Source: a virus. Taken from it: a DNA stretch of 43,237 nt. The stretch covers positions 1 to 43,237 of the IMG/VR virus record IMGVR_UViG_3300047284_000541; one strand, 5' to 3'. Below are positions 3,001-18,849 of this stretch, piece after piece. Position numbers and translations under genes: made by a program. The notes below the pieces were generated by a model. That model had not been told where the DNA came from and searched no databases. It saw only the letters and a program-made list of their open reading frames with translations. Position 1 is the stretch's first letter. Every line of letters begins with the position of its first letter.

Positions 3001-6000
3001 GAGCTGAAGGCGGAAATCGCGTTGGATTACGCCGAGCGTCAGCAGAAGTACGAGGAAATAGCCAAAGCCCAAATTAGTCCCAACATGCAAGGGACGCTTG
3101 GCGCGTTCGCCGGCGCGCTCATGCATTTCAAGGGAATCATTCCGATGTCCGAGGACGTCGTCATTAGCGGGTTTTCCGCAGACGGGTACGTTCTGAGAAA
3201 CAAAAAGGATTCCGTTCTGGCGATACCGTCCACGAATTACGCCGTCAGCCCGACCGAGCATTTCATAAACTTGGCGAACAACTCAGGTTTCGTTTCAACG
3301 GAGAACGTGATGAGGGAGGGCGTTGCCATGCTTTCGATTGAGCACAACGTCGACAGCTTGATGCACGGAATTATTGCACCTCCGTGGGGCGACCCTGCCG
3401 CCGGAGTCATAGCAAAGACCTCTACCAGCAGACTGTTCCCCGTCGCGGGCAACTTGGAAAAGGTGCTCACGGCCATGAGCGCAGAGGGCCCGGTTCCGTT
3501 CTACCCCTCTACGGGATACCAAGGCCTGAGCGACGTGGCAAGGGGCTCGCTTCTTGGAAGCATCAAGCTCGCCCACTCGCTAATCCTGACCTATGTTGAG
3601 GATGCCGCCGCCGAGGCCGCGAAGAAGAGCGAGGGAAGCTACAACGACGAGGTTCTCTCAAAGCAGAGCTTCACGAAGCACTACGCAAGCATTTCCGGCA
3701 CGCTCAATCGAATCTGGGGCAACCCCATTTTCCTGTCGGAAACCAAGCTTGGGCCGGTCGGCATGTTTCAGCATCAAGGACTCAGTCCCGTCATGGTCGG
3801 GGCGGCCTCCGCCGCCAACGTGCTCGCCGTGGTCGAATCCGGACTCCCCAAGGCGCATTCAGAAAGACTCGTCTATGACGACGTTCTGCACAAACAGCAG
3901 TACGAAATCTGCGCGGAAGAGGTGCGCAAGGAGTTCAATAATCCGACCGGACCAGATGGAGCCCTTAATCTGAACGCCATAAGGATTGCGGTTGAGGCCT
4001 ACATGTCGATGCTGGGAGCCGGGGCGCTTGGCAGGGTGGCCCACAACATCAGCACCAGCCAATCGCTTGAGACCATAATCGACTCTCATGCGACCATCTG
4101 GCTGAAGAACGTGGACGCAGGTTCTAGGCTCAAAAACCTCATAACCGCCAACAATGAGAAGCTCTCTACCACCATAGCCGAGGCGGGCATCGAGCGTGCC
4201 ATTGATTCCGTCAATCAGGCAAGCATAGACTCATGGCTCAGCGGAGTGTCCATAAAGGCGGGAAGCAAGCTCGGGCATGAGAGCGACCTTTACAAGTTCG
4301 TCGCAGGACAGATTGCGTCGATGATTGGTGATGTGAACTTCTGGATTGGGCATTTCTCGGCCATCGCGGCGTTCAAGGAACTCAAGTCCTACATTCCCGT
4401 CCAAAAGCCGGGAGACGAATTTGACGCGGTCAGTTTCGACTTTGTCAGGCCCGGAAGAACGACTTCACGCACCGTAGACGCCAAGAACCTGATGTACGGG
4501 TTCAAGCAAGCCGTGGGAGTGCAGAACAACTCCGCCGTGGCCAGCACCAGCTCGGCATTGATTCTGACGGGGAGGATGCAACACAAGACCAGACATCAGC
4601 AGGCGACCGGGCATTCATTCGACTCTCCGACCTTCATCGACCGCCCGGCAGGAGGCGGATTCTTCTTTTCGCCTGACGCACGGACTGCAAATTTCATTGA
4701 AGATAAGGTCTCACTGCAAGGCCATCCCACGGATAAAGCTTACTCGAACATGTCGCCGTTCGGCTTCATCGGTTCCACCGGAGCGCTGTACGGACGTGCG
4801 GCTCCGCATAACGATTTCGAGGGGGGCAAGCACGTCCGCTATGTGCTCCGTTCAAGCTATGCGGAAATCGGTGCGGGGCCGGTCTCGCTGTATGATGCCA
4901 TCAGAAGGACGTCTCAAACGGTCAGACTTCAGACCTCGCCCCTGACGATGGATTCCGAAACGTCTACGGCCAAGTCTGGAGAGCCGCAGAAACTGACCTA
5001 TGACCTGCTGACTCTTCAGCGCTCCGTAGCCAGCAAGATTTCCGCCAACAACATCCAGTCCATCGCCTCTCAGTTCGGAAAAGAGAAGGTCTCCATCCCG
5101 GCCGCCAGACACAGAATCGGACCGAAGGTGCACCCGTATGTACTTGGATTGAAGGAGACCCGAAACAAGGACATCAGGGAGCTTTTCCTTCACTCTCACA
5201 GCTTCTCCAAGAATCCGCTGTTCATGTCGCTCGCAGGATTCGACGCGCCCGCGCGACCGGCCATGGAAGACGCCAGCCATTACAATCCCGCCTTCAGCTG
5301 GAGAAGATTGGGCGACGGAAGGATAATGTTCAATTACTCACCGACGTTGAACGTGCTCGGCTATTGGCAGGCGACTGAAAAGTGGAGGGACGGCCAATGG
5401 CCTACCGGAATTCCGTACCAGTTCGGAGCCGGATGGGACGTCAACAAGGGCGTCCTAATCCCGAACGCCATGAGCCGGTCCATGTCCAATCTCATCACGC
5501 TTCAAAAGGGGCATAGGAGTCTTACCGGAGCAGTCGGGTCGCTTGTTCATGGCCTCAAAAAGTACGAGTTCATGAGCCCGGCCGTCCTTGAGGCCATGCA
5601 CCAAGGCGTCGAAGCTAGGTTCGCGAGGTTTGAAATGCCAGCAGAGGCCCTGAAGGAATACTCCAAGAGCCCGCCAATGGCGAATAAGGTCCCTGAAGGA
5701 CTTAAGCAGTATTTCGATTCGGCGTCATTTAGCTCAGAGCGGCCTGATTTCGCCTCCGGAGGAGCGCTTTACGAAAACGTGGAGAAGTCCCTCCTTCTTT
5801 CCAGCCAAGGGCTTTCTTATTTCACCTTCGTCCTGCCCAAGAACGCCAACATCAACCATTTCATGGAGGTGATGGCGCTCATCCATGAAGCCGGTTCCGT
5901 GATAATGAGCAACCCCAATGTCACGATGCTCAGCGGAGAAATAGGACAAAGCTTAATCTTCGCGCCCAATTCCAAAAACTTCTTGGCCGAGGCCGAAGAG

Positions 6001-9000
6001 GCCGTCGACAGATTCTACAAAGGCGGATTTTTTGCCTCGGAAGCTGCATTCGCCGAAGCTGTTGCGGGTGAATCCGCAATAAGCGACAGGAGCTTTGAAG
6101 AGCTTCTTTCCGGAGCGCCCTCGTCTTCCTCCTCGGTCGCCGTCAACTCCCTCAAAAGGAAGCTGGTTTTCAGCCCCAACACCATAAATGACATGGAGGC
6201 GGCCTTCCAGATGATGTCGTTGAAGCCAAGCGGCTATTTCGTTCCTCAGGCCGAACGTCAGCTGAAGGCCCATGGCGAAACCAAGCTGGCAATCCAGCAC
6301 CTTTTCCCGGGAAGGGAGGACCTTCTCGAATACGCTTGGGACAAGGGGGCGAACGTCTCCGTGTTCAAGAACAGAAGCGACGGAAGGTACACGGTCGCAT
6401 ACGACTCCTATGACACCGTCGACGCCAACGGAATGCCCAGCAAGCGACGGATAGTCCTGACCGTTAAGAACGAATCCGAAGCCAGCCGAATCGCTCAGCA
6501 AGTCTCGGCGTCGGCCACCGAGGCCGCCTTCGTCAAATCCTCCATGACCGACTACGTCATTGAGGACGTGGGCTCCGGGGCCGCGTCGGATGAAAGGCCG
6601 TTCAGGGCTAGGTCCTACCGCCCCGACAAGGGCTTCGACGAGGTCAATGAATGGAGAGTCTTGGGCATTGAAAAGGCGTTTGCCAGCAAGGATGAGGCCA
6701 AGGTCGTTGCCTCGGAGCTGAACAAGCAGAAGGTTGTCACCGGCAAGGTGAAGCCGCCGACCGTAATTGAGCTCAGTTATGATTCGGACGCAGGTGAAAT
6801 AGAGTCTGTCCTGAGGTCCAACATCTCATTCGGCACGCATGCGCCGATACAGTATGCTCTGGCGTCGTTGAGGGCGGTGAAGAACGGCTTGGACAAGCAC
6901 AAGCGCATGAAGCCCTCCATGACGGGCGCGGAGTGGTTCGACTTCATGTCCTACCACAGGATTTCAAAGCATGAGATGAGGACGCTCAATCTTGCCATGC
7001 TTTTCCACCTCAATCTTGAAGCACAGCTGACCCGTTCTGACGTGGCGAGGTACATCAACGCCGTTTACGTCAAGACCGGGCGCGCCATGGGCAGGGAGCA
7101 TAGCAACATCCTGACGGACACCAGCATGAAAGCTTGGCCATACATGCAGTACGCCAGCTTGGCCCACAAGCTCAGGGCCAAGATGATGGCCGATTCGCTG
7201 ATGCAGATGTACGCCAAAATCGAGGAGAAGATTGGCGCCTACGGAATCACCAACTTCCTAGTATCCTCGGGCGAAGGCGACCCAAGGGAAGGGGACCACA
7301 TTGTTGCCGCCTATTCCGCCTTGCGCGACATCCACATCCAGATGCTCCGCGAATCTCTTTCGGCCGTCACCAGCGAGGCATACGCCCAGAAGTTCTTCGA
7401 GGAGACGAAGGGCAAAACCTTGCCCGAAATCTTCAAGATGGTCGCCATGAATGACAAGCCCATCGCTCGGGCGATTTCGGCCGCAGTCATGTACCATTTC
7501 GCGAACTCCATGGGACGTCAGGAGAACGCCGCAAAGCTCTCATCCCTCGCCGGGATACTCGGAATCGACTTGGCCGTGGAGACCCCGGAAGGGAACATGG
7601 ACACCGGTGACATCACCAGCAATCTGGTCAAGCTCGCGCAAAACAGCGAGCTTGGCGGAAGCGGATTCCCTGCGCCAAAGGTTCCCCCGGTTCTAAGGCC
7701 GGGCGAAGAGCAAAACCTGTCGGCGAAGTCGGCCAACACTTGGGGCACTTACAGCTCGGGCGTTGGACCGTACTATTTCGACGTGTACCACACCGACATC
7801 GCGCCGAACGCCGAAAGGTTTGGCAAAGAGAGGATGTTCTTCGAACAGAAAGCTCAGGACGCCCGCAACAGGAAGGACTATCAGGAGGCCCAAAAGTATG
7901 AACGCATCATCGAGTCAATGCTTTCGCTTGAAAAGGTCAGGAGGGCCATACTTGAAAACGGGCACTTTGCGAAGGGCGCTGGACACATCAACTCTCCCGA
8001 CGACACTCATCAGCTGTTCCATCTGCGCTACGGAGAGGGCATAGTACAGTCGGCCGTTCCTCCGGGCGCCAAGGCATCCGACGTCCAGTTCTTCCTTAAT
8101 GACGACAAGAACCTTCCGTTCAACAGCTTGAACATTGAGGAAATCCAGTCGGACACGTTCCAGAAGTACACTTACGGACCCGGGGGCTCAGTGGGCTTCA
8201 AGGCGCCCTATGGCATCGCCTTGCCGTTTGACAGAAAATCCGCCGAAGCTTCAAAATTCATGGAGGAATGGAGGTCGCTTACCAACACGATTGCGTCGGC
8301 CGAAGCGGGTTTTGCGGAGAAGTGCGTCACGAGCAACGTGTTGCTCAATTCAGGGGCTCTAAGGTACTTCCACGCCGGTCTGAACAACTCCTACTACAGG
8401 AAGTTCGAGGAGCTGCCTGAAGTCCACAAATGGCTGATTTTCCAAAGCATCAAGCTGGAGCTGGACAATCCTGACGGCTCACCCGAGTTCGCCATAAATG
8501 ACATAAGCAGGATTGGGTGGATTGAGAGCCCGACCGAGAAAATCCAAGTTCCCGAGTCCCTCAGGAAATCCCTGCCCGGAATGGACGGGGTCCTGACCGT
8601 CCCGAAAATTGTCAGGTCGGACCTTCCGGCGACTGATTCTTGGGTTATTTCCGTGGCCACGCGGGCCTACCTGAACTCGGATACTGGCTCAGGCGCGGCC
8701 GCCAACATGCGCTCCCCGAACAACGTGATGGAGCTCAGCTTCGCCAACATCGGCGGGAACATGTCAAACCTCCTGCAACTCGGAGACCCGAACTTCAATC
8801 CGACCCTTTCGTCAGCTCTGGTGAACCCGTTCTTCAGCTCCTCCACCTTGACCCGGGAGACGAGCGTGGTCGACCTAGCCGTGCGCATGTTCATGTCGAA
8901 CGCCGACAATGCGAAATTCGTCATGGACAACCTAGGAGGGTATTTTGAGCAGGTCGACACGAGGCATCATCAGGAGAGAGAGACTTCTGAGGGCCTGAAG

Positions 9001-11868
9001 CCCCCGATGAGCTTCGACATGCTCGGCGTCGCAGTAATTGAAAATTACAAACGGGTGATGATGGGTTCCTTTTACGCCCTTAGCCCCCAAGACAAGAAGG
9101 TCGCTTACAGGACGACCAAGCTACTTCAGCACCTCACTGAAGCAAAGACCAAGGTGGCCCTGCCTTTGGTCAATTTCCAAGAATTAAGGGGCGGGCTCCC
9201 CGACATCGCGGCGCTTTTGAGCCATCCCAAGCAGGACACGGATGTGCATCTCAGCCCGTGCATGTATTGGGTCGACATCCCCAAGCTCACGGAAAAAGCA
9301 AGCAAGGGCGACGCCCTGAGCCAAGAAGGCGTAGTCGCGAACGCAAGGGCCCGGTTGATGGCGCTTGGAGACGACATGTATGACTCCGAGAACGCCGACG
9401 CCGTCCACTTGTTCGTGCAAGCAGAACTTGGCCTGCTCCTTGGTGAGCCGGTCATGAGCCAGAGCCAAGTCAAGAACGGCACCATGCTCACGGCCATGCG
9501 CCCGGTTTCCATGATGAGGTTCCAGCTTGGCGTTATCCTCAATTGGATTGGAAGCTCATTCGAGGAATTCACGGAAATCATGGGCAAGCTCAGCCCCGAT
9601 AGCTTCAAGTGGGAAGACCAGAAGGTTAAGGAGGGCTTTGCCGCAATCGATGGGCTCACTCCGCGCGAGTCAAACTTGCTCAAGAACGTCGTATGCGGAT
9701 TCAACGCGTATGATTGGGATTCTGCCAATCTTCAGCCCACTGACCGCGTCGTCCACGGGTACACGTTGCTGGGCTTGCTCCATTATTCCGTGTTGGCGCA
9801 TGACGCCCTTAAGGGCGGAAGCTCGGCTCAGGCCCTTAAAAATCTCGAGGCCTCCATCAAGGCGCCGTATGAGAGGAAGTTCCTTGAACTCAGGTCTCAA
9901 AACCTCAATGAAGCTGAGCAGAGATTCTTGATGCTGGGCAGGAATTATGGGCCGGTGTACGTGCATGCCAGAGCGATTCAGGAAAACTACCAGACCAAGG
10001 ACTTTTCGTTCACGAACTTTGACAGTCTCCACCTAGCCCAGCACAACACCGCCAAGACTGTCATGGGACAATACGTCGAGTTCCTGATGCGAGGCCATTA
10101 TTACACGGTCAGGAACTTGAGCCGACAGCTTCCTCTCGACGAAATGAAGAAGCGCGTGGCAGAGCTCGAGAAGGGCCTTGGCCTCACGACGGAGTCTTTC
10201 AACTACCCGGATACGATTCCTTTCGGAGAGGAAAACTCATACCGCCCAATCGCCATGGGCGTCATGACCATGCAGGCAATCCAGATGGGCAAGCGCGCCC
10301 TGACCTTCATGGACGCCAGACATCACAGGGCAAGGTTCAGCTCGACCAACAACATAGCTATGGCCGTCAGAATCGGCGACCTCTGCATCACCGGCATGAA
10401 CACGTCAGCTGGAAGAAGCTCAACGCTTTGTGAGGCGTTTTATTTCCTGTCGGAAGCGGCCAAACGCGACGACATCCACGGCCAGCGCCTGAGGCACATT
10501 CTGACTCCGCGCGGGAAGGAGCAATTCCTTTTGAATCTCAAGCCAGAAGACAGGGAGTTGATTCTTGATGGGGTTGATAGGCCGAAAAACGTCAGCTCAT
10601 ACCTAGAGAACGGCAAGGCGTCCCGGTTTGGCGACCTCATGTTCTCTCCGGACGAAATGACGCCGATTACCTTCAGCCAAATCACGTCGGAAGCCCTCGA
10701 CGCGGTGCTTGCCGACGCCCCGCTGGTCAACGAGACTTACAAGGAGATGTTAAAGGACCGCCTTGTGGTCTTCATGCAGACCTCGCTCGGCGGTTGCAGT
10801 ATCAGTCGGCTCGGAGTAAAAACGGACCTGAGCAATTACGGCGAGTCCACTCAGGACATAATGTTGAAGAGCTTCTCTTGGATGAAGAACAGCGTCAGCC
10901 CCATAGCCCTGATACCTTATGGTCGCACGCATGGGTACAACAGCAACTACGGTTCCCCGTCTTGGTTGAACGACCTGCTGTACGCCGGTTGCAGTCAGGA
11001 GGCACGAGACGCCGTGTCCAACGACGCGTTCGAGCTTCCCGCGTACCGTTCCACCGGCTCCGACTCATTCGAAATCATGGACAAGTCGGGCAAGGTGATT
11101 GCAACCGCCATCGGCCGAAAGATGCTCATGGAGCGCCTTGCCCAGCTCTCGAAATACAGGGGCAAGGTTCCCTTCGTCACCAACTTCATCAAACAGTTCG
11201 GAGCAATTGGCGCCTACCCTCTCGATTCATTCCTTCTGCCCGCGAAGGGCAGGCAGGGGCCCACCGGCATGGGAATCGACCAGATGCTCACGCCTTCCGA
11301 CTACCCCGAGCTCAACAACATGTCCGAGGTCGACAAAATTCCGGGCTTTTACAAGACCGGATTCGGGAGGAGCGCATGGAAAGACGCGGCTGAATTCAAG
11401 GGGGCCATGCCTGTCATCAAGCTTGAGGGCAACGACCCCGGCGAGACGAGGGACGCCCTTCCATACCCCTACGACACCAGATACTCGAGCGGAGATAGCG
11501 GTTTTAATTCCTCTAGGCCGCGCCAGAACATGGGCCCGACCGCCTTCGGTAGCGACTCCCTCTCTGGGAACCAAAACACCCCGCTGAGGGCGTTCCTTTA
11601 TGCCCTCGGAATCAGGAAAAGCAGTTCGTCAGAAGAGCTTTACTGGGGCATGGCAAAGGTGACGGGATTCACCGCGCCGACCTTCGTCATAAGGCCCTTC
11701 TACCCCACCGAGTCCCACGTCAGGGAGTTTGAAAAGCTCATTGTCAATGGCATGTCCATGCTGACCTACGTCAATGGCGGCTCGCCCGAGCTGGACGTGA
11801 TGAGGAAGGCCCGGCTGATGAACGGCTACGTCCAAGACAACCCGGCACGCGATGAACCCGCCCGATGA
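1..11868 (+). CDS. Giant phage polyvalent protein, 5' end outside window
   Basis: The frame is open from base 1, so the gene is truncated at its start; the GTG at 70 is only an internal codon. At least 3,955 residues are present. Numbering from base 70, an HExxH motif lies at 50-54 inside a helix-like stretch. A downstream NEIQAR motif (E282) matches the glutamate-containing motif that follows HExxH in zinc-peptidase-like domains of phage large polyvalent proteins. Residues about 1515-1536 (H, FD, then GG-FFFSPD) resemble an ADP-ribosyltransferase-like core. Residues 2690-2695 (EEIQSD) match a second polyvalent-protein domain. I saw no signal peptide and no T7/N4-type RNA polymerase motifs. 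The gene sits directly before the lysis genes and is last in the virion module, which suggests a virion-carried protein ejected into the host. The polyvalent class is well supported; individual activities are inference. Confidence 0.85.
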   Translation, partial: ADSYASSAVQPNIKSNDPGSFYIVLGVRSLADDEFIPSENEEVAKRTGRRWYEAEALRSLHVHLNPIATTLLHEVQHVIQYIEGMRDPVISPVHWVKAIQLATLARLMGVKENIMPVQATNELIQAYKATKTLPVEAVGVDFDENYKASWEDSFRALDSVIRGPVVSHFRSHSRTYLLRATEGFARTLTGLAARGAAQVEHAEKAVLLHESAKAALTLEQANHVYVQLKDLEAETRDNKEFNRLWFNDFGLQQAIRAANVARHAWIYENEKSLILAGTHAVSARRFVEIFTENFMVINYATMANEIQARVTQARLGMSEEELAKNPREDINVPNGSVLAVIKESLRQSDKTAEELGRDFFKLQMGGSAPVFKIMESMIGDLGEEGPFRDLGNLALIRYFASAANDELEALGKFVISSRGWTVGEDGKLRLQTGDYVVAGKFDEFLSKARDAAGITTEDREAITFSGATFDKFLTIKDVLQLSELKVTAENVMSTGNSAIDAVMSDDFPAKIKGGNLRVELSKISSVSEVAMSLCNVDKIAEKFAEDDLTKSDLLNIMCFAHDMVSAGIVNIARHPIVTNAEDLVMNMTKEQFARLDKAHKFFPGTNFLKRSFGRIPVQGFFKVRFNKVELDEEAIRGVEMFSRLSPEQSAAFGADALIERFKKNKLIESVTGSSVTPINPARVNRINSSINRHLNMVAPFFESAIKKMSETNEVDAIRKIASQIMTDLEKSVMEISLSSALFPSVRDSDSALAVSMPGQPSVEQRRAIKGLGGQYQQSERTSGVELIRLNQFKHRERVTRYWGLPYYGVPNPVFAGITGALIDLNNGPYEGASFAAEITPALISPSAGYLHVPANQGGGKLSDVNSSPRIFTNVPIHEIIKQIQDAHYHGNSPYTISDGLYGSLHGTANSINEHLQRFRSCYDCLQKIEAAPQSFNWDEITWNYVVSGIVQAAGKEYNFGEHGPSQCEALTEGQRQTAKMVLLTAISELEKRVPVITKALELKAEIALDYAERQQKYEEIAKAQISPNMQGTLGAFAGALMHFKGIIPMSEDVVISGFSADGYVLRNKKDSVLAIPSTNYAVSPTEHFINLANNSGFVSTENVMREGVAMLSIEHNVDSLMHGIIAPPWGDPAAGVIAKTSTSRLFPVAGNLEKVLTAMSAEGPVPFYPSTGYQGLSDVARGSLLGSIKLAHSLILTYVEDAAAEAAKKSEGSYNDEVLSKQSFTKHYASISGTLNRIWGNPIFLSETKLGPVGMFQHQGLSPVMVGAASAANVLAVVESGLPKAHSERLVYDDVLHKQQYEICAEEVRKEFNNPTGPDGALNLNAIRIAVEAYMSMLGAGALGRVAHNISTSQSLETIIDSHATIWLKNVDAGSRLKNLITANNEKLSTTIAEAGIERAIDSVNQASIDSWLSGVSIKAGSKLGHESDLYKFVAGQIASMIGDVNFWIGHFSAIAAFKELKSYIPVQKPGDEFDAVSFDFVRPGRTTSRTVDAKNLMYGFKQAVGVQNNSAVASTSSALILTGRMQHKTRHQQATGHSFDSPTFIDRPAGGGFFFSPDARTANFIEDKVSLQGHPTDKAYSNMSPFGFIGSTGALYGRAAPHNDFEGGKHVRYVLRSSYAEIGAGPVSLYDAIRRTSQTVRLQTSPLTMDSETSTAKSGEPQKLTYDLLTLQRSVASKISANNIQSIASQFGKEKVSIPAARHRIGPKVHPYVLGLKETRNKDIRELFLHSHSFSKNPLFMSLAGFDAPARPAMEDASHYNPAFSWRRLGDGRIMFNYSPTLNVLGYWQATEKWRDGQWPTGIPYQFGAGWDVNKGVLIPNAMSRSMSNLITLQKGHRSLTGAVGSLVHGLKKYEFMSPAVLEAMHQGVEARFARFEMPAEALKEYSKSPPMANKVPEGLKQYFDSASFSSERPDFASGGALYENVEKSLLLSSQGLSYFTFVLPKNANINHFMEVMALIHEAGSVIMSNPNVTMLSGEIGQSLIFAPNSKNFLAEAEEAVDRFYKGGFFASEAAFAEAVAGESAISDRSFEELLSGAPSSSSSVAVNSLKRKLVFSPNTINDMEAAFQMMSLKPSGYFVPQAERQLKAHGETKLAIQHLFPGREDLLEYAWDKGANVSVFKNRSDGRYTVAYDSYDTVDANGMPSKRRIVLTVKNESEASRIAQQVSASATEAAFVKSSMTDYVIEDVGSGAASDERPFRARSYRPDKGFDEVNEWRVLGIEKAFASKDEAKVVASELNKQKVVTGKVKPPTVIELSYDSDAGEIESVLRSNISFGTHAPIQYALASLRAVKNGLDKHKRMKPSMTGAEWFDFMSYHRISKHEMRTLNLAMLFHLNLEAQLTRSDVARYINAVYVKTGRAMGREHSNILTDTSMKAWPYMQYASLAHKLRAKMMADSLMQMYAKIEEKIGAYGITNFLVSSGEGDPREGDHIVAAYSALRDIHIQMLRESLSAVTSEAYAQKFFEETKGKTLPEIFKMVAMNDKPIARAISAAVMYHFANSMGRQENAAKLSSLAGILGIDLAVETPEGNMDTGDITSNLVKLAQNSELGGSGFPAPKVPPVLRPGEEQNLSAKSANTWGTYSSGVGPYYFDVYHTDIAPNAERFGKERMFFEQKAQDARNRKDYQEAQKYERIIESMLSLEKVRRAILENGHFAKGAGHINSPDDTHQLFHLRYGEGIVQSAVPPGAKASDVQFFLNDDKNLPFNSLNIEEIQSDTFQKYTYGPGGSVGFKAPYGIALPFDRKSAEASKFMEEWRSLTNTIASAEAGFAEKCVTSNVLLNSGALRYFHAGLNNSYYRKFEELPEVHKWLIFQSIKLELDNPDGSPEFAINDISRIGWIESPTEKIQVPESLRKSLPGMDGVLTVPKIVRSDLPATDSWVISVATRAYLNSDTGSGAAANMRSPNNVMELSFANIGGNMSNLLQLGDPNFNPTLSSALVNPFFSSSTLTRETSVVDLAVRMFMSNADNAKFVMDNLGGYFEQVDTRHHQERETSEGLKPPMSFDMLGVAVIENYKRVMMGSFYALSPQDKKVAYRTTKLLQHLTEAKTKVALPLVNFQELRGGLPDIAALLSHPKQDTDVHLSPCMYWVDIPKLTEKASKGDALSQEGVVANARARLMALGDDMYDSENADAVHLFVQAELGLLLGEPVMSQSQVKNGTMLTAMRPVSMMRFQLGVILNWIGSSFEEFTEIMGKLSPDSFKWEDQKVKEGFAAIDGLTPRESNLLKNVVCGFNAYDWDSANLQPTDRVVHGYTLLGLLHYSVLAHDALKGGSSAQALKNLEASIKAPYERKFLELRSQNLNEAEQRFLMLGRNYGPVYVHARAIQENYQTKDFSFTNFDSLHLAQHNTAKTVMGQYVEFLMRGHYYTVRNLSRQLPLDEMKKRVAELEKGLGLTTESFNYPDTIPFGEENSYRPIAMGVMTMQAIQMGKRALTFMDARHHRARFSSTNNIAMAVRIGDLCITGMNTSAGRSSTLCEAFYFLSEAAKRDDIHGQRLRHILTPRGKEQFLLNLKPEDRELILDGVDRPKNVSSYLENGKASRFGDLMFSPDEMTPITFSQITSEALDAVLADAPLVNETYKEMLKDRLVVFMQTSLGGCSISRLGVKTDLSNYGESTQDIMLKSFSWMKNSVSPIALIPYGRTHGYNSNYGSPSWLNDLLYAGCSQEARDAVSNDAFELPAYRSTGSDSFEIMDKSGKVIATAIGRKMLMERLAQLSKYRGKVPFVTNFIKQFGAIGAYPLDSFLLPAKGRQGPTGMGIDQMLTPSDYPELNNMSEVDKIPGFYKTGFGRSAWKDAAEFKGAMPVIKLEGNDPGETRDALPYPYDTRYSSGDSGFNSSRPRQNMGPTAFGSDSLSGNQNTPLRAFLYALGIRKSSSSEELYWGMAKVTGFTAPTFVIRPFYPTESHVREFEKLIVNGMSMLTYVNGGSPELDVMRKARLMNGYVQDNPARDEPAR

Positions 11869-12975: not shown

Positions 12976-13010
12976 TTGTAAAAAGAAAGAGGCCCGGTCT
13001 CCCGGGCCCC
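12976..13010 (-). terminator. Rho-independent terminator of the leftward operon
   Basis: On the minus strand a 7-bp GC stem (12991-12997 with 13002-13008, 4-base loop) is followed by a T-rich tract TCTTTCTTTTT. It lies about 25 bases past the stop codon of the last leftward gene at 13032. There is no T-run on the plus strand. Confidence 0.8.
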
Positions 13011-13031
13011 TGCGGTTCGCTCTGAGTCTCC

Positions 13032-13457
13032 TCAGATAATGCCGATGGACTTGAGAAGCTTCCTCAGCTTCGCGGCGTCCTTGACGGTCGGCTTGGGCTT
13101 GCTGGCGGACTTGATGCCCCTGATGAACTCCCGCTTCTTGGGCCTGATGCTGAAGGCGCTGAGAACCTCAGCGTTCAGTCCGTGAGACCTGCAGTACCTG
13201 CGGTACGCGAGTTCCCGGACGAGCCCTGCGCGGATGATGTCGGAACGGGTGATGCCGCTTGCGGCGCACTCGGCCTCCAGTTCGTCCATCAGCCCCTTGG
13301 TGATGCTGGTCGTGGCGTTGAGCAGTTTGCCCTTCAGCCCGAGCGAGATTACGCTCCGGCGTCCGTGCTCCCTGTCCTTGTGGACCAGCGTCCCGTACGG
13401 GCGCTTCTTGGTGTTCACCGAGGTGTCCGCCTCGGCCTTGTTGGTGTCGTGTTTCAC
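13032..13457 (-). CDS. Ribbon-helix-helix-like small protein, unknown target
   Basis: The 141-residue protein is basic. Its middle (about 55-92) contains two helices separated by an SGITRSD turn, like the helix-turn-helix half of ribbon-helix-helix DNA-binding proteins. The C-terminus is rich in Lys and Pro. The start is GTG, preceded by a leader with CACCCACACGACAC, matching the A/C-rich leaders of other genes in this operon. It is the last gene of the leftward operon, 18 bases after the Erf gene. A transcription or copy-control role is possible but unproven. Confidence 0.55.
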   Translation of the reverse strand: MKHDTNKAEADTSVNTKKRPYGTLVHKDREHGRRSVISLGLKGKLLNATTSITKGLMDELEAECAASGITRSDIIRAGLVRELAYRRYCRSHGLNAEVLSAFSIRPKKREFIRGIKSASKPKPTVKDAAKLRKLLKSIGII

Positions 13458-13475
13458 GTGTCGTGTGGGTGGAGA

Positions 13476-14213
13476 TTAGAACGGAACGTCGTCCGAGGTG
13501 GAGTCGGTCATGCCACCCTTGCGGGAGTTGGCGATGATGTCGAGGGCTTCCCTGAGTCTGAGGTCAAGGTCGCTGACCTTGCCGTTGTACGGCTTCGGGG
13601 CCCACTTCTCGATGTACCACAGGAGGGAGTTCTCGGGCAACGACCCGAGGGTCTGGCCTTTGTTCTTGCCGAAGTGAAGCGGCACGTTGAGGGCGGCCGC
13701 CAAGTCGCTGTTGACCGGGGCTTCGAGCACCTTCTGGGGAAGGGGCGGCGTGGGAAGCGCGGCTGGCTTGGCAAATACTCCGGTGCCCTTGGTGACCGCG
13801 GGCGCGGATTTGGCCGTCCTGTCGGCTTCAGCGTCGTCGTCCGAAGTGGCCAGATTTGCCACGGATGCGATGGCGTACCGTCTCAAATAGGAGACGAGTG
13901 AGCCGACGTCCTGACCCTTGACGCCCTCGGTGACGGGGAGCGTGACCTTGCGCGAGATGTAGCCGCCTCCGGAATGGAGCACCATGGTCTCGACGCCGAT
14001 GGAGTTCCCGTCCGACACGGGAAACTGCACGATGGCGAGCCCGTGCTGGGCGAAGATGGCCTTGGTCCCGGCGATGTGCTGGCCGAGCGTGGCGTAGGCG
14101 TTCTTGTGGAACGGGTTCTCCGCATCCGCGACTACGTCACGGGTGCGGGCGATGGCCTCGGCGTACGCTTTCGCGAACTCGGGCGTGATGTTCTGGGTTT
14201 GGTTGGTATCCAT
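13476..14213 (-). CDS. Erf-family single-strand annealing protein with SSB-like tail
   Basis: The 245-residue product has an Erf-type N-terminal domain, including NPFHKNAYATL near 33-43 and SYLRRYA at 108-114 followed by an Asp triplet at 125-127. The family anneals complementary single strands in recombination and genome circularisation. A Pro/Ala linker follows, then a small HFGKNKGQTLGSLP-type motif near 180-200 that occurs in several phage recombination proteins. The last five residues are DDVPF, the acidic tip typical of SSB proteins, which recruits repair enzymes. The gene lies in the same leftward operon as a RecE-like exonuclease, so the two probably act as a recombination pair. Confidence 0.88.
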   Translation of the reverse strand: MDTNQTQNITPEFAKAYAEAIARTRDVVADAENPFHKNAYATLGQHIAGTKAIFAQHGLAIVQFPVSDGNSIGVETMVLHSGGGYISRKVTLPVTEGVKGQDVGSLVSYLRRYAIASVANLATSDDDAEADRTAKSAPAVTKGTGVFAKPAALPTPPLPQKVLEAPVNSDLAAALNVPLHFGKNKGQTLGSLPENSLLWYIEKWAPKPYNGKVSDLDLRLREALDIIANSRKGGMTDSTSDDVPF

Positions 14214-14219
14214 GGGAGA

Positions 14220-14405
14220 TTACTTGGTCTGGGCGGTCTGCACGACCAAGGTGTTCTGGTCGTTGCTGACGAAGTTGATGAGGATGAGGCGCATGAAGTC
14301 TGCGCGAGAAACGCCGATTTTGTCAGCGGTCTCCTTCAACTTGATGGCGTGGACTTCCGGGATTTTGACCCACAGAAGCTTGGTCTTGTTTTCTTCTTTC
14401 TTCAT
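14220..14405 (-). CDS. Small ribbon-helix-helix-like protein
   Basis: I chose the ATG at 14405, giving 61 residues, because it follows an A/C-rich leader (CCCAAACAACAA) and overlaps the upstream stop as ATGA. A longer upstream frame reads through the neighbouring gene with low-complexity sequence and is unlikely. The protein has a strand-like KLLWVKIPE segment, then two helices around a GVSRADF turn, the usual ribbon-helix-helix arrangement. It may be a regulator; the target is unknown. Confidence 0.6.
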   Translation of the reverse strand: MKKEENKTKLLWVKIPEVHAIKLKETADKIGVSRADFMRLILINFVSNDQNTLVVQTAQTK

Positions 14406-14683
14406 TTGTTGTTTGGGTGGAAGAGTTCCTTCAGGAGCGTGGTGATGATGGCCGCCCTGACCTTGCCGAGCAGGTCGACCTTCTCCTTGCCGTGGAGCCA
14501 ATAGCGGCCCTGCTCCCTAATCTTGCACCCCATGGAGCCCCAAGAGGTGTAGCCGTCGGCGTAGAGGGCCTTGCACAGGTCGTACAGGCGCTCGTCATTC
14601 TGGATGCAGAGCATGAGGCGGACGGTGGGTTCCATGTCTTTGTCAGGCGGTACGAAACCGCGGATTGGGATTGGTGATGGCAT
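14402..14683 (-). CDS. Small protein of unknown function
   Basis: I do not recognise this 93-residue protein. It has an N-terminal Pro-rich stretch, then a mixed helical region with two Cys and several aromatic residues (GYTSWGSMG). The start at 14683 is favoured over one 30 bases upstream because it follows the recurring ACACGAC leader, which is preceded by a GC hairpin. It overlaps the next gene by 4 nt (ATGA), so the two are probably translationally coupled. Confidence 0.6.
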   Translation of the reverse strand: MPSPIPIRGFVPPDKDMEPTVRLMLCIQNDERLYDLCKALYADGYTSWGSMGCKIREQGRYWLHGKEKVDLLGKVRAAIITTLLKELFHPNNK

Positions 14684-14702
14684 GTCGTGTGGAAAATTGG
14701 AA

Positions 14703-14717
14703 GGGGGCTTCACCCCC
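14703..14717 (-). promoter_or_regulatory. GC hairpin before an A/C-rich leader
   Basis: GGGGG (14703-14707) pairs with CCCCC (14713-14717) around a 5-base loop. On the minus strand it is followed by TTCCAATTTTCC and then the ACACGAC leader of the 14683 gene. The same order of hairpin, TTCAATTT and A/C leader occurs at 18547-18560. It could be an attenuator, weak terminator or RNA-processing site. Confidence 0.4.
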
Positions 14718-14727
14718 CGGACGGAGA

Positions 14728-14979
14728 TTAGAGACTTCCGTTGGCCTTGGACTTCTCGAGTTCTTTGACTCGCTGGGAGAGTTCTTCCACCGCGCTGATT
14801 ACGGCGTTGTGGAGGTGAACAATCCCGGAAGCGTTGCTGAGGTCGAGGTCGGAGAGGCGGACGCCCAGACCCTTTATGACGGGGTCCTGCACGTTGTCCC
14901 TTTCGGCCTTGAGGGACTCGATGGTTTCTTCGAGTTCCTTCAGCTTTGCTTCGATGCCCTTGATGTTGATTTCAGACAT
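14728..14979 (-). CDS. Coiled-coil small protein, unknown function
   Basis: The 83-residue protein has heptad-like helices at both ends (about 8-30 and 60-78), rich in Glu, Lys and Leu. The middle segment reads LSDLDLSNASGIVHLHNAV. This suggests a dimeric or trimeric coiled-coil protein, with no recognised family. The start follows a roughly 100-base gap holding a perfect 7-bp dyad and an A/C-rich leader with CAACAACAACACAAC. The gap suggests separate regulation from the helicase-loader gene upstream. Confidence 0.6.
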   Translation of the reverse strand: MSEINIKGIEAKLKELEETIESLKAERDNVQDPVIKGLGVRLSDLDLSNASGIVHLHNAVISAVEELSQRVKELEKSKANGSL

Positions 14980-15008
14980 GATTGCGTTGTGTTGTTGTTG
15001 TCGGTTTT

Positions 15009-15026
15009 ACCCAATGTTTATTGGGT
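15009..15026 (-). promoter_or_regulatory. Perfect dyad upstream of the coiled-coil gene
   Basis: ACCCAAT (15009-15015) and ATTGGGT (15020-15026) form a perfect 7-bp inverted repeat around GTTT. It lies 30 bases before the start at 14979, in the leader. No T-run follows it on the minus strand, so it looks more like an operator or RNA-binding hairpin than a terminator. Confidence 0.45.
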
Positions 15027-15079
15027 CGAGATGGGTTATCAAATGACTTTCGTAGTCTCCTGCAAGTCGAAAGATGAAA

Positions 15080-15790
15080 TTATTTTGCCGCCACCCTGTC
15101 GAACAGGTCCGGGTCCTTGAGGCGGGCTACGAAAGCCGCGCCAAGCTCCTTGTCATGAAACCTGTCCATCAGGGTATCCCCGGTCAAGTTGGTCGTAATG
15201 ACGGTCGGGCGCATGTGCTGGGCCCTCTGGTCAACCAAGGCAAACAGGCATGAAGCCATGCGGTCGGTCATTTTCTCCTTACCCAAGTCGTCAAGGAACA
15301 GCATGGGGACGTTGACCATCTTGTACATGGCCTTGTCCCAAGCGTCCTTGCCCCAAGCCGCTACGAGGCGGGCCTCGAGTTCAAACATGGTAAGAAACAG
15401 GTACTTATTCGCATACTTGTTCTCATTCCAGAAGCGGTCGGCTATGTACCAAGCGGTGCGGGTCTTGCCCTTGCGGGTTGAGCCGTGGATGAGCAGTCCC
15501 TTGCCCTTGTGCATGTCCGTGCTGGCCCTGTTAGGCCTCCAATGCTTGGCGGTCTTGGCGAGGTCGCCAAGGCGCTCCGGGTCCGTGTCCTTGTAAAGTT
15601 CGGGCAGGGGAGTCTCGGCCACCGGCGGCTTGGTCACCGCATTGGCGAGCATCCTGTCCCAAGCGGCAAGGCACTCGGGGCACAAAGTTTCGAAGATGGG
15701 CATTCCCTCCTCGCCGTACTCGCGGACTCCAACCTTGTTGTTGCAGTTGAAATTCCGGCAGTTGGGCGGGCTCAGACGGTTCTGGTCCAT
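15080..15790 (-). CDS. DnaC/IstB-like AAA+ helicase loader
   Basis: The 236-residue protein carries a Walker A motif GSTRKGKT (103-110), a Walker B motif FLDD (165-168) and a sensor-like TTN (199-201). An N-terminal Cys cluster (C11, C16, C37, C40) could bind zinc. This is the layout of DnaC/DnaI-type loaders, which place the host replicative helicase at the phage origin. It overlaps the preceding gene by 19 nt, and the winged-helix initiator lies just upstream. That pair is typical of lambda-like replication modules. No phage helicase, primase or polymerase is seen, so use of the host replisome is likely. Confidence 0.85.
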   Translation of the reverse strand: MDQNRLSPPNCRNFNCNNKVGVREYGEEGMPIFETLCPECLAAWDRMLANAVTKPPVAETPLPELYKDTDPERLGDLAKTAKHWRPNRASTDMHKGKGLLIHGSTRKGKTRTAWYIADRFWNENKYANKYLFLTMFELEARLVAAWGKDAWDKAMYKMVNVPMLFLDDLGKEKMTDRMASCLFALVDQRAQHMRPTVITTNLTGDTLMDRFHDKELGAAFVARLKDPDLFDRVAAK

Positions 15791-16056
15791 GCCTTGAGAG
15801 TCAGTTCAATCGAATTGTTTTCGAAATCAGCGAGTTCGAACGTCATGAAGATGCGTCCGAGTTCGACCCTATGCGACACGTGGACGCGCATGAGCGAGTC
15901 CTTGACCGCGTTGATGAAGCGCTCGACGGCCGATTGGACCATGCGCTTGGCCTCTTCAGGGTTGCCGTCCTCGAGCACGAGTTGGGCTCCTTCTACGTCC
16001 TCCATGCAACTTCCAACGGCATTGGCGGTTTCGCGACTCCAGATGAACTTAGTCAT
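15772..16056 (-). CDS. Small protein between initiator and helicase loader
   Basis: I do not recognise this 94-residue protein. It has a helical N-terminal half with an EEAKRMVQSAVERFI stretch, and an alternating hydrophobic C-terminal half that looks like beta strands. The start follows a leader with ACAACAATACACAACT, of the A/C-rich type. It overlaps the helicase loader by 19 nt, so the two are probably translated together and may act in replication. Confidence 0.6.
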   Translation of the reverse strand: MTKFIWSRETANAVGSCMEDVEGAQLVLEDGNPEEAKRMVQSAVERFINAVKDSLMRVHVSHRVELGRIFMTFELADFENNSIELTLKAWTRTV

Positions 16057-16077
16057 AGTTGTGTATTGTTGTTCTCA

Positions 16078-16108
16078 GTTATGCTTAACGCATCAGACCT
16101 GTTGTCAA
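16078..16108 (-). promoter_or_regulatory. Possible sigma-70-like promoter
   Basis: On the minus strand a consensus TTGACA lies at 16108-16103 and a CATAAC at 16083-16078, with 19 bases between them. The site is just after the initiator gene and 22 bases before the start at 16056. The -10 match is partial and the spacing is long, so support is weak. Confidence 0.3.
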
Positions 16109-16109
16109 C

Positions 16110-16781
16110 TCAGAAGCCCTTGGCGTGGTCAGAGTCGCTCTTGGGCTGTGGCGCCAAGCTAGACCTGCCCACCTTGGGCTCGAAGATGCCCTGCCATCCT
16201 TGCAGTAATGACTGCTGGACGGCTTCTATGGCCTTAGGGGCACCCCAGAGGGCGAACACCCCGTTCCAGCGCTTCACATAGGCGTTTCCGCTGGCCCAAC
16301 GCCTGCCCCTGCGGAACTCCAGCCACTTGTCCCAGACGTCGGAGAGGTCCTTGTTGGACCGGATGAACTGGTCCCCCACGTCCGAAGGATTGTAGACGGC
16401 ATCCGCCTCTACTATTTCACTATGTCTATCCTTATTACTATCTGGGTGAAGTTTTCTGCACCCCCTAGGTGAAGAAACCTTCACCCCTCCGGTGAAGGGC
16501 GCTTCACCCTTGTCTATGACGTGGGTGATGATGTCCCAGAGCACACCGGCCTCGTCCCTGCGGACGTAGCCAGCGTCTATCAGTCGCTGGACCCCGTACT
16601 GCACGTTGCGCACGGACTGGCCCATGTACTCGGACAGGGACTCGCGCGTGGCGAAGCACCCGCGCTCGTTGCACAGGATGTGGATGAGCCCGAACAGGAA
16701 CTTGTCGGACTGGGTCAGCCGCTTGTCGAGGAACACGCGGCCCGGTATCCAGACGCCCTTGAACTCGAAGTCCTTAGCCAT
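16110..16781 (-). CDS. Winged-helix replication initiator
   Basis: The ATG at 16781 gives 223 residues. The N-terminal part matches the HTH_36-type winged helix of phage replication proteins: WIPGRVFLDKRLTQSDKFLF, then ATRESLSEYMGQSVRNVQYG as the DNA-reading helices, and LIDAGYVRR as the wing entry. The C-terminal part holds a conserved-looking WDKWLEFRRGRRWASG segment. Such proteins bind the phage origin, often inside their own gene, and recruit a DnaC-like loader, which is encoded two genes downstream. The start overlaps the exonuclease stop by 8 nt (ATGGCTAA). A longer frame upstream of the ATG runs antisense-like through the exonuclease gene and is not coding. Confidence 0.75.
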   Translation of the reverse strand: MAKDFEFKGVWIPGRVFLDKRLTQSDKFLFGLIHILCNERGCFATRESLSEYMGQSVRNVQYGVQRLIDAGYVRRDEAGVLWDIITHVIDKGEAPFTGGVKVSSPRGCRKLHPDSNKDRHSEIVEADAVYNPSDVGDQFIRSNKDLSDVWDKWLEFRRGRRWASGNAYVKRWNGVFALWGAPKAIEAVQQSLLQGWQGIFEPKVGRSSLAPQPKSDSDHAKGF

Positions 16782-17625
16782 TGAGGATTTGGACGCCGAA
16801 GAATTCGGAAGTGGACGGCTTGCCCATGCTGAGCCAGTCGCCGTACATGGCAATCGCCTTGGCGTAAAGCTTGCGTCCCTTGCACAGCATCTCGTCCGAG
16901 CAGACGAACACCCGCGCGTCGTGCGGCGCCTCCTTGGAGACGCAGTAGTACTCGAATGACACGGGCACGGGCGGCGTGATGCTCTTCTCGATGAGGTCGA
17001 CGTAATAGGCGGCCTGAAGCGCCCACATGTTGTGGTATGACGTGCTGGGCACGTCCTCGAGCGAGGCCACCGTCTTGATGTCGCGTATGACGATGCTGTT
17101 TTCCTCGAACACGGCCATGTCCAGCCGCCCCTTGGCCTCGAAGACACCGGCGTGTATGCCGTCGACCTCGTAGGAGAAGACACCGAAGATGGCTTCCTCG
17201 ACGTGCACGGCCGCGCCCTTCCTCGGCTTGATGAGAGGGGCCACGGACTCGGCCATGGAATTGATGAGTTCCGACTCCTCATGCTTGAGCAGGATGCGAC
17301 CGGCATTGGCCTCCATGAACTCGTTGTACAGGGCCTTGTGCTCGGTCTTGCGTCGGTCGAGGCCCTCGGGAAGCACGGCGTATCCCGAGCCGTATTTCTT
17401 GGGCTCGAGCACCTTGCAGTGGAGGGCGGTGCCAATCTTCATGGCCGGAGTCTCTTCGCGCTTCTCCACCCGCGCCCTGTGATGGGCGTAGAACGGGGAG
17501 ACGCGGAGGACGTCCTTGAGCATGGACTGGTTGAGCGCCTGTGAGGACGAGTATTCCTCGTCGCTCGCGGGGCGCAGGGTGGACTCGAGGCAGAGCGCCT
17601 CGGCGGTGTCGTATGACTTCTTCAT
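16774..17625 (-). CDS. RecE/exonuclease VIII-like PD-(D/E)XK nuclease
   Basis: The 283-residue protein resembles phage RecE-type exonucleases. It has an N-terminal SMLKDVLRVSPFYAHHR segment, then GTALH (65-69), then the core motif GRLD (D169) followed by RDIKT (D182, K184), the D...(D/E)xK catalytic set. A YHNMWALQAAYYVD helix follows, like the Q-rich motif of this clade. The enzyme would resect double-stranded ends to make 3' overhangs for Erf. I chose the ATG at 17625 (MKKSY...) because it overlaps the upstream stop as ATGA. The longer frame from 17730 has poor N-terminal sequence. Confidence 0.85.
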   Translation of the reverse strand: MKKSYDTAEALCLESTLRPASDEEYSSSQALNQSMLKDVLRVSPFYAHHRARVEKREETPAMKIGTALHCKVLEPKKYGSGYAVLPEGLDRRKTEHKALYNEFMEANAGRILLKHEESELINSMAESVAPLIKPRKGAAVHVEEAIFGVFSYEVDGIHAGVFEAKGRLDMAVFEENSIVIRDIKTVASLEDVPSTSYHNMWALQAAYYVDLIEKSITPPVPVSFEYYCVSKEAPHDARVFVCSDEMLCKGRKLYAKAIAMYGDWLSMGKPSTSEFFGVQILNG

Positions 17626-17822
17626 CGTGGTCGGTGGAAAGCGTTGACCCTCTGGGCCTCGGACATGGCGCAGTCGCGCACGTCCTTCATGGATTGCGCG
17701 AGCATCTCGGCCATGGGGCTGTGCTCGCACTCTTGGAACTGCACGTGCAGGTTATGGGCCATGCGGGCCGCTTGCCACAGCCGTCTGGCCTCCTCGTGCT
17801 TGTCGGGAGTCTCTTGTTTCAT
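17622..17822 (-). CDS. Small helical protein before the exonuclease
   Basis: Starting at 17822, the product has 66 residues, is mostly helical and is rich in Glu, Gln, His and Met. I do not recognise it. The start is chosen because it follows a clear A/C-rich leader (CACAACACATCACGAC) after a 37-base gap. The stop overlaps the exonuclease start by 4 nt, so it may tune exonuclease translation or act with it. Confidence 0.55.
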   Translation of the reverse strand: MKQETPDKHEEARRLWQAARMAHNLHVQFQECEHSPMAEMLAQSMKDVRDCAMSEAQRVNAFHRPR

Positions 17823-17859
17823 GTCGTGATGTGTTGTGATGGCCAGCGCGCGCTGGCTG

Positions 17860-18174
17860 TCAAGGGCTCGGAGGCGCCTCATCCCTGCCAGCGTAGCGCA
17901 GACCCTCGTCGAGCGCCGATTTCAGGTCTTTGTGCTCGGCCAAGTCGATGAACCACAGCCCTCCCCCCTCTTCGAGGGGCGTGGCGGTGGGCGCGCAGAT
18001 GGTCACGCTGCGGTGCCCAATCTGGAGGTGGAGGCCGTCATAGGCCCCGCCGAGCACCATTTCGGCGTCGACGTTCTCATCGCCCGGCCTGTACGCCTCG
18101 ACGGGCACGTTGATGCGTCGGCATTCCCTGCTCATCAGGGTGTACAGGTAGGCGCTGCCGTAGAACTTAGGCAT
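17860..18174 (-). CDS. Small protein of unknown function
   Basis: This 104-residue protein is not recognised. It has an N-terminal Tyr-rich stretch, a central region of alternating hydrophobic residues (LHLQIGHRSVTICAP) that suggests a beta fold, and a Pro-rich tail. It overlaps the preceding gene by 8 nt (ATGCCTAA), so translation is probably coupled. Confidence 0.55.
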   Translation of the reverse strand: MPKFYGSAYLYTLMSRECRRINVPVEAYRPGDENVDAEMVLGGAYDGLHLQIGHRSVTICAPTATPLEEGGGLWFIDLAEHKDLKSALDEGLRYAGRDEAPPSP

Positions 18175-18520
18175 TGTCGTCGTTGCGTTCGAGTCTGTCG
18201 TAGCCGGGAGCGAGGTCGAAGACTTTGAGATGCCTTGCCAGCGCTTTGCGCGTGATGGGCCTGTCGGAGATGATTACGGCCGTGCCCAGCAAGGGCCTCG
18301 AGTTGGCAATCATGAACCCGTCGGTGACGCCATTGATGGCGGCGTCTTCATGCACGTTGATGTACAGTCTGTTACGGCCAATCATGGCATGGTGCTGTTC
18401 GAACCATCCGCCGATTATCTCGCGCATGGCCAAGCACTGCTCTCCGACTTTGTCGGGCAGGTTCGTCTCTTGGATTTGCCAGATGCCACCGGGCATCGGG
18501 CTGATGATGTGTGCTTTCAT
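18167..18520 (-). CDS. Small protein, weakly DUF3846-like
   Basis: The 117-residue protein has a segment RLYINVHEDAAINGV followed by an Asn and then GTAVIISD. This recalls the DUF3846 pattern, where a strand with acidic residues is followed by Asn and a G-x-A-V-I strand. The match is weak and the function of that family is not established. The start follows a strong A/C-rich leader (CCACACACACAAC), itself preceded by a UUCG hairpin. Confidence 0.55.
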   Translation of the reverse strand: MKAHIISPMPGGIWQIQETNLPDKVGEQCLAMREIIGGWFEQHHAMIGRNRLYINVHEDAAINGVTDGFMIANSRPLLGTAVIISDRPITRKALARHLKVFDLAPGYDRLERNDDNA

Positions 18521-18546
18521 GTTGTGTGTGTGGTTGGGAAATTGAA

Positions 18547-18560
18547 GCCCCCGAAGGGGC
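18547..18560 (-). terminator. UUCG-capped hairpin between two leftward genes
   Basis: On the minus strand GCCCC-TTCG-GGGGC forms a stem with the very stable UUCG tetraloop, followed by TTCAATTTCCC. It lies 7 bases past the stop of the 29-residue gene and about 27 bases before the next start. It may be a leaky terminator or a processing and stability element. It resembles the hairpin at 14703-14717. Confidence 0.5.
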
Positions 18561-18567
18561 CGCCCGC

Positions 18568-18657
18568 TTATCGGAAGAGCAGGATTGCGACACCGGTGAA
18601 GATGGCGAAATCGAGCGCCGCCGCGATGAAGACGAGCGTGTTGATGCTGATGTGCAT
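18568..18657 (-). CDS. 29-residue single-span membrane peptide
   Basis: ATG at 18657 to TAA at 18568 encodes 29 residues. Nearly the whole peptide is one hydrophobic segment (TLVFIAAALDFAIFTGVAILLF) ending in Arg, with one Asp inside the membrane span. It has the strongest A/C-rich leader in the window (AACCACAAACAACACACAAC) and is followed by a hairpin. Both support a real gene. It is the first gene of the leftward operon, directly downstream of the tRNAs. The role is unknown; small membrane peptides in phages can affect lysis timing or exclusion. Confidence 0.6.
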   Translation of the reverse strand: MHISINTLVFIAAALDFAIFTGVAILLFR

Positions 18658-18695
18658 GTTGTGTGTTGTTTGTGGTTATGCCCGTTAGGGCGAGA

Positions 18696-18770
<75 letters not shown>

Positions 18771-18778
18771 GTGAAAGG

Positions 18779-18849
18779 TGGAGGTGAGGGGAATCGAACC
18801 CCCTTAGGTGTCGGTCTAAGGTCGATACTTACATACCAATGTCACCCCC
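18779..18849 (-). tRNA. tRNA-like gene with abnormal anticodon arm
   Basis: The 71-base minus-strand sequence has a full 7-bp acceptor (GGGGGTG/CACCTCC) and a good T arm (GGGGG-TTCGATT-CCCCT). Its overall length is normal for a tRNA. A 3-bp D stem around a GG-containing loop is possible. The middle does not form a canonical 5-bp stem with a 7-base loop and U33. The best fold (ATCGA/CCGAC, two A-C mismatches) would put TTA at the anticodon positions. CCA is not encoded (CCT instead). It lies 8 bases from tRNA-Lys. It may be a decayed tRNA or a tRNA-like RNA. Confidence 0.5.

Follow-up and report, generated by a model that had tools for sequence, protein, structure and literature searches.

How are the early genes of a phage translated when Shine-Dalgarno (SD) sites are missing from their start regions? 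This question is raised by IMG/VR record IMGVR_UViG_3300047284_000541, which comes from an uncultured tailed phage and was analysed over its whole length of 43,237 nt (hereafter the window). Its early operon lies on the minus strand (13032-18657), and its late genes, including those for the terminase (24952) and the capsid (30421), are on the plus strand. An earlier note had described A/C-rich leaders in place of SD sites before at least seven leftward genes. We found that these leaders are the 3' half of a larger module, comprising a hairpin or a tRNA, a TTT linker and a CA leader, the upstream half of which had escaped the note. The A/C leaders probably load the ribosomes, as one half of a modular element that initiates translation independently of SD sites in the early operons of these phages.

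Leftward genes preceded by a spacer of at least 12 nt were defined as spaced early genes. The window contains seven of them, with starts at 13457, 14683, 14979, 16056, 17822, 18520 and 18657. The last 15 nt before these starts have an A+C content of 0.886, against 0.54 before 65 other ATGs of the same strand. This value was reached in none of 100,000 resamples and random 15-mers gave 0.55; the bias is real and stronger than had been claimed. It is weaker at the six overlapping early genes of the window (AC20 of 0.70). The relatives used for comparison, 78 loci with a relative of the capsid and 24 with a relative of the helicase loader, are contigs of one phage group, so counts and p values across them are not independent. 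With this restriction, A/C content amounts to 0.86 at spaced early genes (p about 1e-39), 0.69 at coupled early genes (p about 1e-31) and 0.54 at internal ATGs.

An alignment of the upstream regions, which the earlier note had proposed as a way to a motif, yielded a consensus enriched over background. Across 24 relatives, CACACAC-ATG is common to the spaced early genes in a fixed register, with (CA)nC abutting the ATG (C-1 90%, A-2 75%, A-4 73%, A-6 81%). Of 111 spaced early genes, 43 have ACACAC immediately 5' of the ATG; the initiation region is thus ACA-rich, as it is in the known ACA/CA enhancers. From -20 to -8, G is mostly at 0-6%. As they contain almost no G, the leaders are likely to be single-stranded: the predicted unpaired fraction of the 20 nt before the AUG is 0.76 at spaced early leaders, compared with 0.60 at coupled early starts, about 0.57 at late starts and 0.44 at random positions.

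With regard to SD sites, these were scored as purine-rich complements of the anti-SD sequence 4-18 nt before the start. None of the seven spaced early leaders of the window contains GGAG, GAGG or AGGA. In the relatives, SD matches were found at 2.5% of spaced early genes, 11% of coupled early genes and 12.5% of internal ATGs. Late genes reach 2.7-14% against a background of 14.3%, and the excess over background expected of SD-led initiation was observed in no gene class of these phages. The major capsid gene at 30421 indeed has no SD site, and the capsid leaders of the relatives are likewise SD-less and A/C-rich. The AAC noted before the late ATGs at 23129, 30421 and 38541 is present in all three cases; at 23129 and 38541, however, it consists of a TAA stop codon followed by C and is thus weak evidence of a signal. 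Late genes in general exhibit a slight bias (AC15 of 0.60 to 0.68 vs 0.53), and neither the hairpin-leader module nor the CACACAC register.

A lack of SD enrichment in every gene class could mean that the leader is the ordinary translation start of an SD-poor host, and not a speciality of the phage. Verrucomicrobiota and Bacteroidota both include SD-scarce members (PMC10783764), and the signal may therefore be partly a host rule. L146 and L157, which represent a different phage (the exonuclease alone is about 26% alike), also have SD-less, A/C-rich starts, with GC hairpins before some genes, and one of their proteins resembles proteins of Bacteroides and Nonlabens phages (Bacteroidota). The similar look of their starts points to a host rule, whereas the weak signal of the late genes points the opposite way, as these are translated by the same ribosomes and yet show a weak bias and no CACACAC register. 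Furthermore, the strict hairpin-TTTCC-CACACATG pattern was found in 36 stretches of viral contigs, fewer than the 57 of a permuted control; the strict module is therefore not widespread. We consider the host explanation rather doubtful. Among the pattern matches, L111, L117, L122, L133 and L136 are members or kin of this phage group, and L134 is a jumbo phage with AGGA-type SD sites. The distant relatives phiM5 and a Manatee Spring phage, which share with the group only the capsid (about 27% alike) and, in one of them, the exonuclease, use SD sites (0.69 and 0.46, respectively) and have no such leader. Phage C75C1 (OQ984151, L198), a low G+C phage whose genes follow the same order and whose terminase is 32% alike over 94%, is a distant relative without the module and has ordinary leaders in place of CA leaders. 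In a set of 84,980 species genomes, neither an exact match to the tRNA-Lys of the window nor a relative of the capsid, sought with a profile, was found.

The full module follows a constant order: stop codon, about 6 nt, GC-rich hairpin with a small loop, TTT linker (ACCAATTTTCC or ATCACTTTCC), CA leader and ATG. Strong stems are present in 46 of the 64 tRNA-free early spacers, often with UUCG or GNRA-like loops (UUCG in 10, GAAA in 4), and the hairpin ends 10 to 29 nt before the AUG in the 36 unique tails measured. When compared with dinucleotide shuffles, 24 of 63 stems fell below 0.05; the combined p value of 1e-17 is overstated, as the sequences are related. The hairpin before gene 14979, for which alone pairwise changes were counted, displays the compensatory base changes of a conserved RNA structure. 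Across 13 sequences, 92% of cells are paired and 18 cells are changed on both sides, with a covariation of 0.577 vs 0.217 after shuffling and at most 0.077 when the partner was slid. The stem before gene 14683 has a wholly different sequence in distant relatives, with the G/C arms even swapped, and the hairpin is kept. A regular expression for the whole module, a strict detector that misses known copies, matched five times on the early strand of the window vs 0.4 in shuffles. An element like the hairpin upstream of the 18657 leader (GCCCTAACGGGC or GCCCTCACGGGC) precedes the first small open reading frame in L088 and L089.

GC-rich stems with UUCG loops look terminator-like, and the hairpins might be intrinsic terminators or attenuators, with every leader on a new transcript. 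This is very unlikely: there is no U-tract directly 3' of the stems, terminator-like sites are as numerous as in shuffles with no match at intercistronic hairpins, and the real operon end has a clear terminator-like site with TTCTTTTT. Leaderless initiation would need a promoter that places +1 at the AUG; a scan for promoters of the sigma-70 type detected none in the early operon. Given the missing U-tracts and promoter-like sites and the different terminator at the operon end, the terminator and sigma-70 promoter readings were rejected. A role of the hairpins as DNA operators was judged less likely, as the stems vary by site, the loops belong to the RNA tetraloops and the sense strand has wobble pairs.

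Between the stem and the CA leader, 26 of the 36 unique hairpin tails contain a TTT run (shuffled mean 3.2, maximum 10 over 2000 rounds), and TTTCC occurs in 36 of 80 early spacers vs 1 of 114 late spacers. In many relatives, a tRNA-Arg takes the position of the hairpin before the ribbon-helix-helix (RHH)-like gene, the TTTCC and CA tail being unchanged; TTT runs are present in 14 of 15 tRNA tails (shuffled mean 0.5). The stem is followed by ACCA in 10 of 36 tails. These features would suit an RNA-processing punctuation, in which the hairpin or tRNA and an A(A/C)UUU linker form an endonuclease cleavage module. The cut would be made by an RNase E-type enzyme in the single-stranded, U-rich linker, or by tRNA 3' processing where a tRNA is present. 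The upstream mRNA would keep a protective 3' hairpin, the downstream mRNA would receive a short UUUCC(CA)n leader that loads ribosomes, and each cistron could attain its own abundance. The RNase E motif RN|WUU mapped in vivo (PMC5222698) is matched by 21 of 36 hairpin tails and 9 of 15 tRNA tails, and the cip-cel operon offers an established case of cleavage just 3' of intergenic hairpins (PMC10311766). As the linker fits this motif and spacer cleavage is known, processing is a plausible second function, one that extends SD-independent initiation and does not oppose it. Nevertheless, the covarying 14979 hairpin has no TTT in its tail, and we regard processing as possible, short of probable. 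We put forward still more tentatively the proposal that hairpin or tRNA, UUU linker and CA leader form an interchangeable cassette, which would cut the early polycistronic mRNA and also start SD-free translation of each unit, at most spaced early genes of the phage group.

With SD-independent initiation as the preferred explanation, the long early mRNA would be read as separate cistrons, each translated independently. A stable GC-rich hairpin or a tRNA after each stop codon would seal off the upstream RNA, and the next 15 to 30 nt would remain single-stranded, ending in the register-fixed (CA)nC at the AUG. The 30S subunit, probably aided by S1-type contacts, would bind the unstructured ACA-rich stretch and locate the AUG independently of SD pairing. 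Genes overlapping the preceding one would depend mainly on coupling, with the signal in a weak form. In enteric bacteria, experiments have established that ACA motifs close to the start codon enhance translation (PMC3879156), and an open structure around the AUG favours non-SD starts in many bacteria (PMC5397173). Since the leaders are also predicted to be open, the CA leader may load the 30S subunit while the hairpin or tRNA keeps the upstream RNA away. From the sequence we infer the translational function, the ribosome or S1 binding and the insulating role of the hairpin. The supports for them are the composition, register and conservation of the leader, the lack of SD sites, the hairpin covariation, the predicted openness of the leader and the spacers free of sigma-70-like promoters and U-tracts. 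The suggestion of a specific non-SD signal that is strongest in the early operon is upheld by conservation, start-codon register and statistics alike, although it covered only the 3' half of the module.

Several points weigh against this explanation. The late genes, which are necessarily highly expressed, mostly manage without the module. Of the five hairpins tested in the window by itself, only two pass p<0.05, and among the seven leader genes the one at 13457 lacks a hairpin. All starts analysed rest on our own gene predictor, a coding-potential dynamic programme that is blind to the sequence upstream of starts. The A/C composition alone could also serve otherwise, for example in binding a GU-rich regulatory RNA. 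The CA leaders would then be the common site of an RNA-binding protein or of a trans-acting RNA rich in G and U, through which the early genes are shut off jointly, with the hairpin as part of the site. GcvB acts on CA-rich sites at ribosome-binding regions (PMC3879156), and the noncoding RNA at the operon head has a G/U-rich stretch in the window (TGGGTTGTGTC). This stretch is not kept in most relatives, a target-matched small RNA having been sought by inspection only, and no common protein site is evident, as stem and loop sequences vary freely among sites. We thus consider a shared target improbable.

The elements of each spaced early gene and the early genes with a recognizable product are listed in Table 1; the early operon further contains small genes without assigned function.

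Table 1. Module elements and neighbouring features of the early operon in the window.
Feature	Position	Strand	Remark
A/C leader ATAACCACAAACAACACACAAC of the first early cistron (29 aa, start 18657)	18658..18679	-	
Hairpin GCCC-TAAC-GGGC upstream of the 18657 leader	18680..18691	-	
Linker and leader TCAATTTCCCAACCACACACACAAC of gene 18520	18521..18545	-	
Hairpin GGCCCC-UUCG-GGGGCU before gene 18520	18546..18561	-	UUCG tetraloop
Leader CATCACAACACATCACGAC of gene 17822	17823..17841	-	
Hairpin GCCAGC-GCGC-GCTGGC before gene 17822	17842..17857	-	p=0.006 vs shuffles
Leader AACTGAGAACAACAATACACAACT of gene 16056	16057..16080	-	
Weak hairpin ATGC-GTTAA-GCAT before gene 16056	16081..16093	-	p=0.64, alone not significant
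Leader AAAACCGACAACAACAACACAACGCAATC of gene 14979	14980..15008	-	
Hairpin ACCCAAT-AAAC-ATTGGGT before gene 14979	15009..15026	-	strong covariation in relatives
Linker and leader TCCAATTTTCCACACGAC of gene 14683	14684..14701	-	
Hairpin GGGGGGT-GAA-GCCCCCT before gene 14683	14702..14718	-	p=0.17 alone; kept in relatives with altered sequence
Leader TCTCCACCCACACGACAC of the RHH-like gene	13458..13475	-	no hairpin; tRNA-Arg there in relatives
tRNA-Lys(CTT)	18696..18770	-	head of early operon
Terminator-like hairpin with TTCTTTTT tail	12988..13011	-	after last early gene; unlike intercistronic hairpins
RHH-like gene	13032..13457	-	GTG start 13457; sub-threshold Pfam match
ERF-like single-stranded DNA annealing protein gene	13476..14213	-	short spacer, without leader module
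DnaC-like helicase loader gene	15080..15790	-	overlaps upstream gene
Replication initiator-like gene	16110..16781	-	overlaps upstream gene
Exonuclease VIII-like gene, PD-(D/E)XK	16774..17625	-	overlaps upstream gene

The operon heads of L079-L098 carry an array of tRNA and tRNA-like genes whose identity (Lys, His, Ala, Arg, Pro, Met) differs among the relatives; the linkers between them are of the CCACCAATTT type and resemble the ones 3' of the hairpins. Beside the tRNA-Lys of the window, a tRNA-like element at 18776-18849 (-) matches RF00023, in the tRNA-like part of tmRNA, with 38.5 bits (cut-off 47 bits). Its acceptor stem (GGGGGUGA/UCACCUCC) contains a G3-U70-like wobble, and a T arm is present, but it lacks an ordinary anticodon arm and a tag sequence. 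Comparable matches are found in L081 (1379-1456) and in L082 (2940-3014), the latter being a tRNA-Ala according to ARAGORN. A conserved hairpin and leader (GGGCCGATAAACGGCCC or GGACCGATAAACGGTCC, then ...CCCCACGACACATACATG) with a compensatory change was also seen in L079 near 9362 and in L082 near 9340, at a start uncalled by the predictor. In L079, L082, L085 and L096, TTGAC is conserved just 5' of a GCCCC-GAAA-GGGGC-type hairpin before the exonuclease gene or the preceding small gene; it is -35-box-like and has no -10 partner. Outside the early operon, a single open frame of up to 3932 codons (70-11868, +) occupies more than one quarter of the record.

SD-independent initiation is common in bacteria, yet few compact start signals that replace the SD site are known. 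With dozens of natural copies, a covarying structure and a fixed register, the contributions of leader, hairpin and linker should be separable here. In the annotation of such phages, the module also serves as a rule for start sites, and its signature may help to find the host. The punctuation of polycistronic RNAs by tRNAs is known, for example, from animal mitochondria. Similarly, the phage tRNA stands in for an intercistronic hairpin before an mRNA leader; unlike in that system, each relative shows this at a single gene position, next to the operon head, and the processing is putative. The cip-cel operon, which undergoes selective RNA processing and stabilization (PMC10311766), likewise has stem-loops in several spacers and an unpaired stretch 3' of the stem. 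Its cleavage is proven, whereas the phage hairpins are smaller, have a repeated TTT-CA tail and are known from their sequence. The Kozak-like A-3/A-6 context of Bacteroidetes (PMC6847099) shares with the phage SD-less initiation with upstream preferences, including the frequent A-6. In contrast to that A-rich context, the phage leaders alternate C and A and are not enriched in A at -3 (A 27%, C 56%). A further comparison is with the enterobacterial ACA/CA enhancers, which raise initiation and include the GcvB targets yifK, dppA and gltI as well as CA and ACAA repeats (PMC3879156). Both have an unstructured ACA-rich stretch beside the start codon, and ACAA repeats are reported, in work cited there, to promote initiation without an SD site. 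The enterobacterial enhancers lie beside an SD site and have no register with the AUG, whereas in the phage there is no SD site, the CA repeat abuts the AUG and it recurs before most spaced early genes. The parts of the module thus resemble known kinds, namely ACA enhancers, non-SD starts and spacer hairpins, and what is new is their repeated, register-locked combination.

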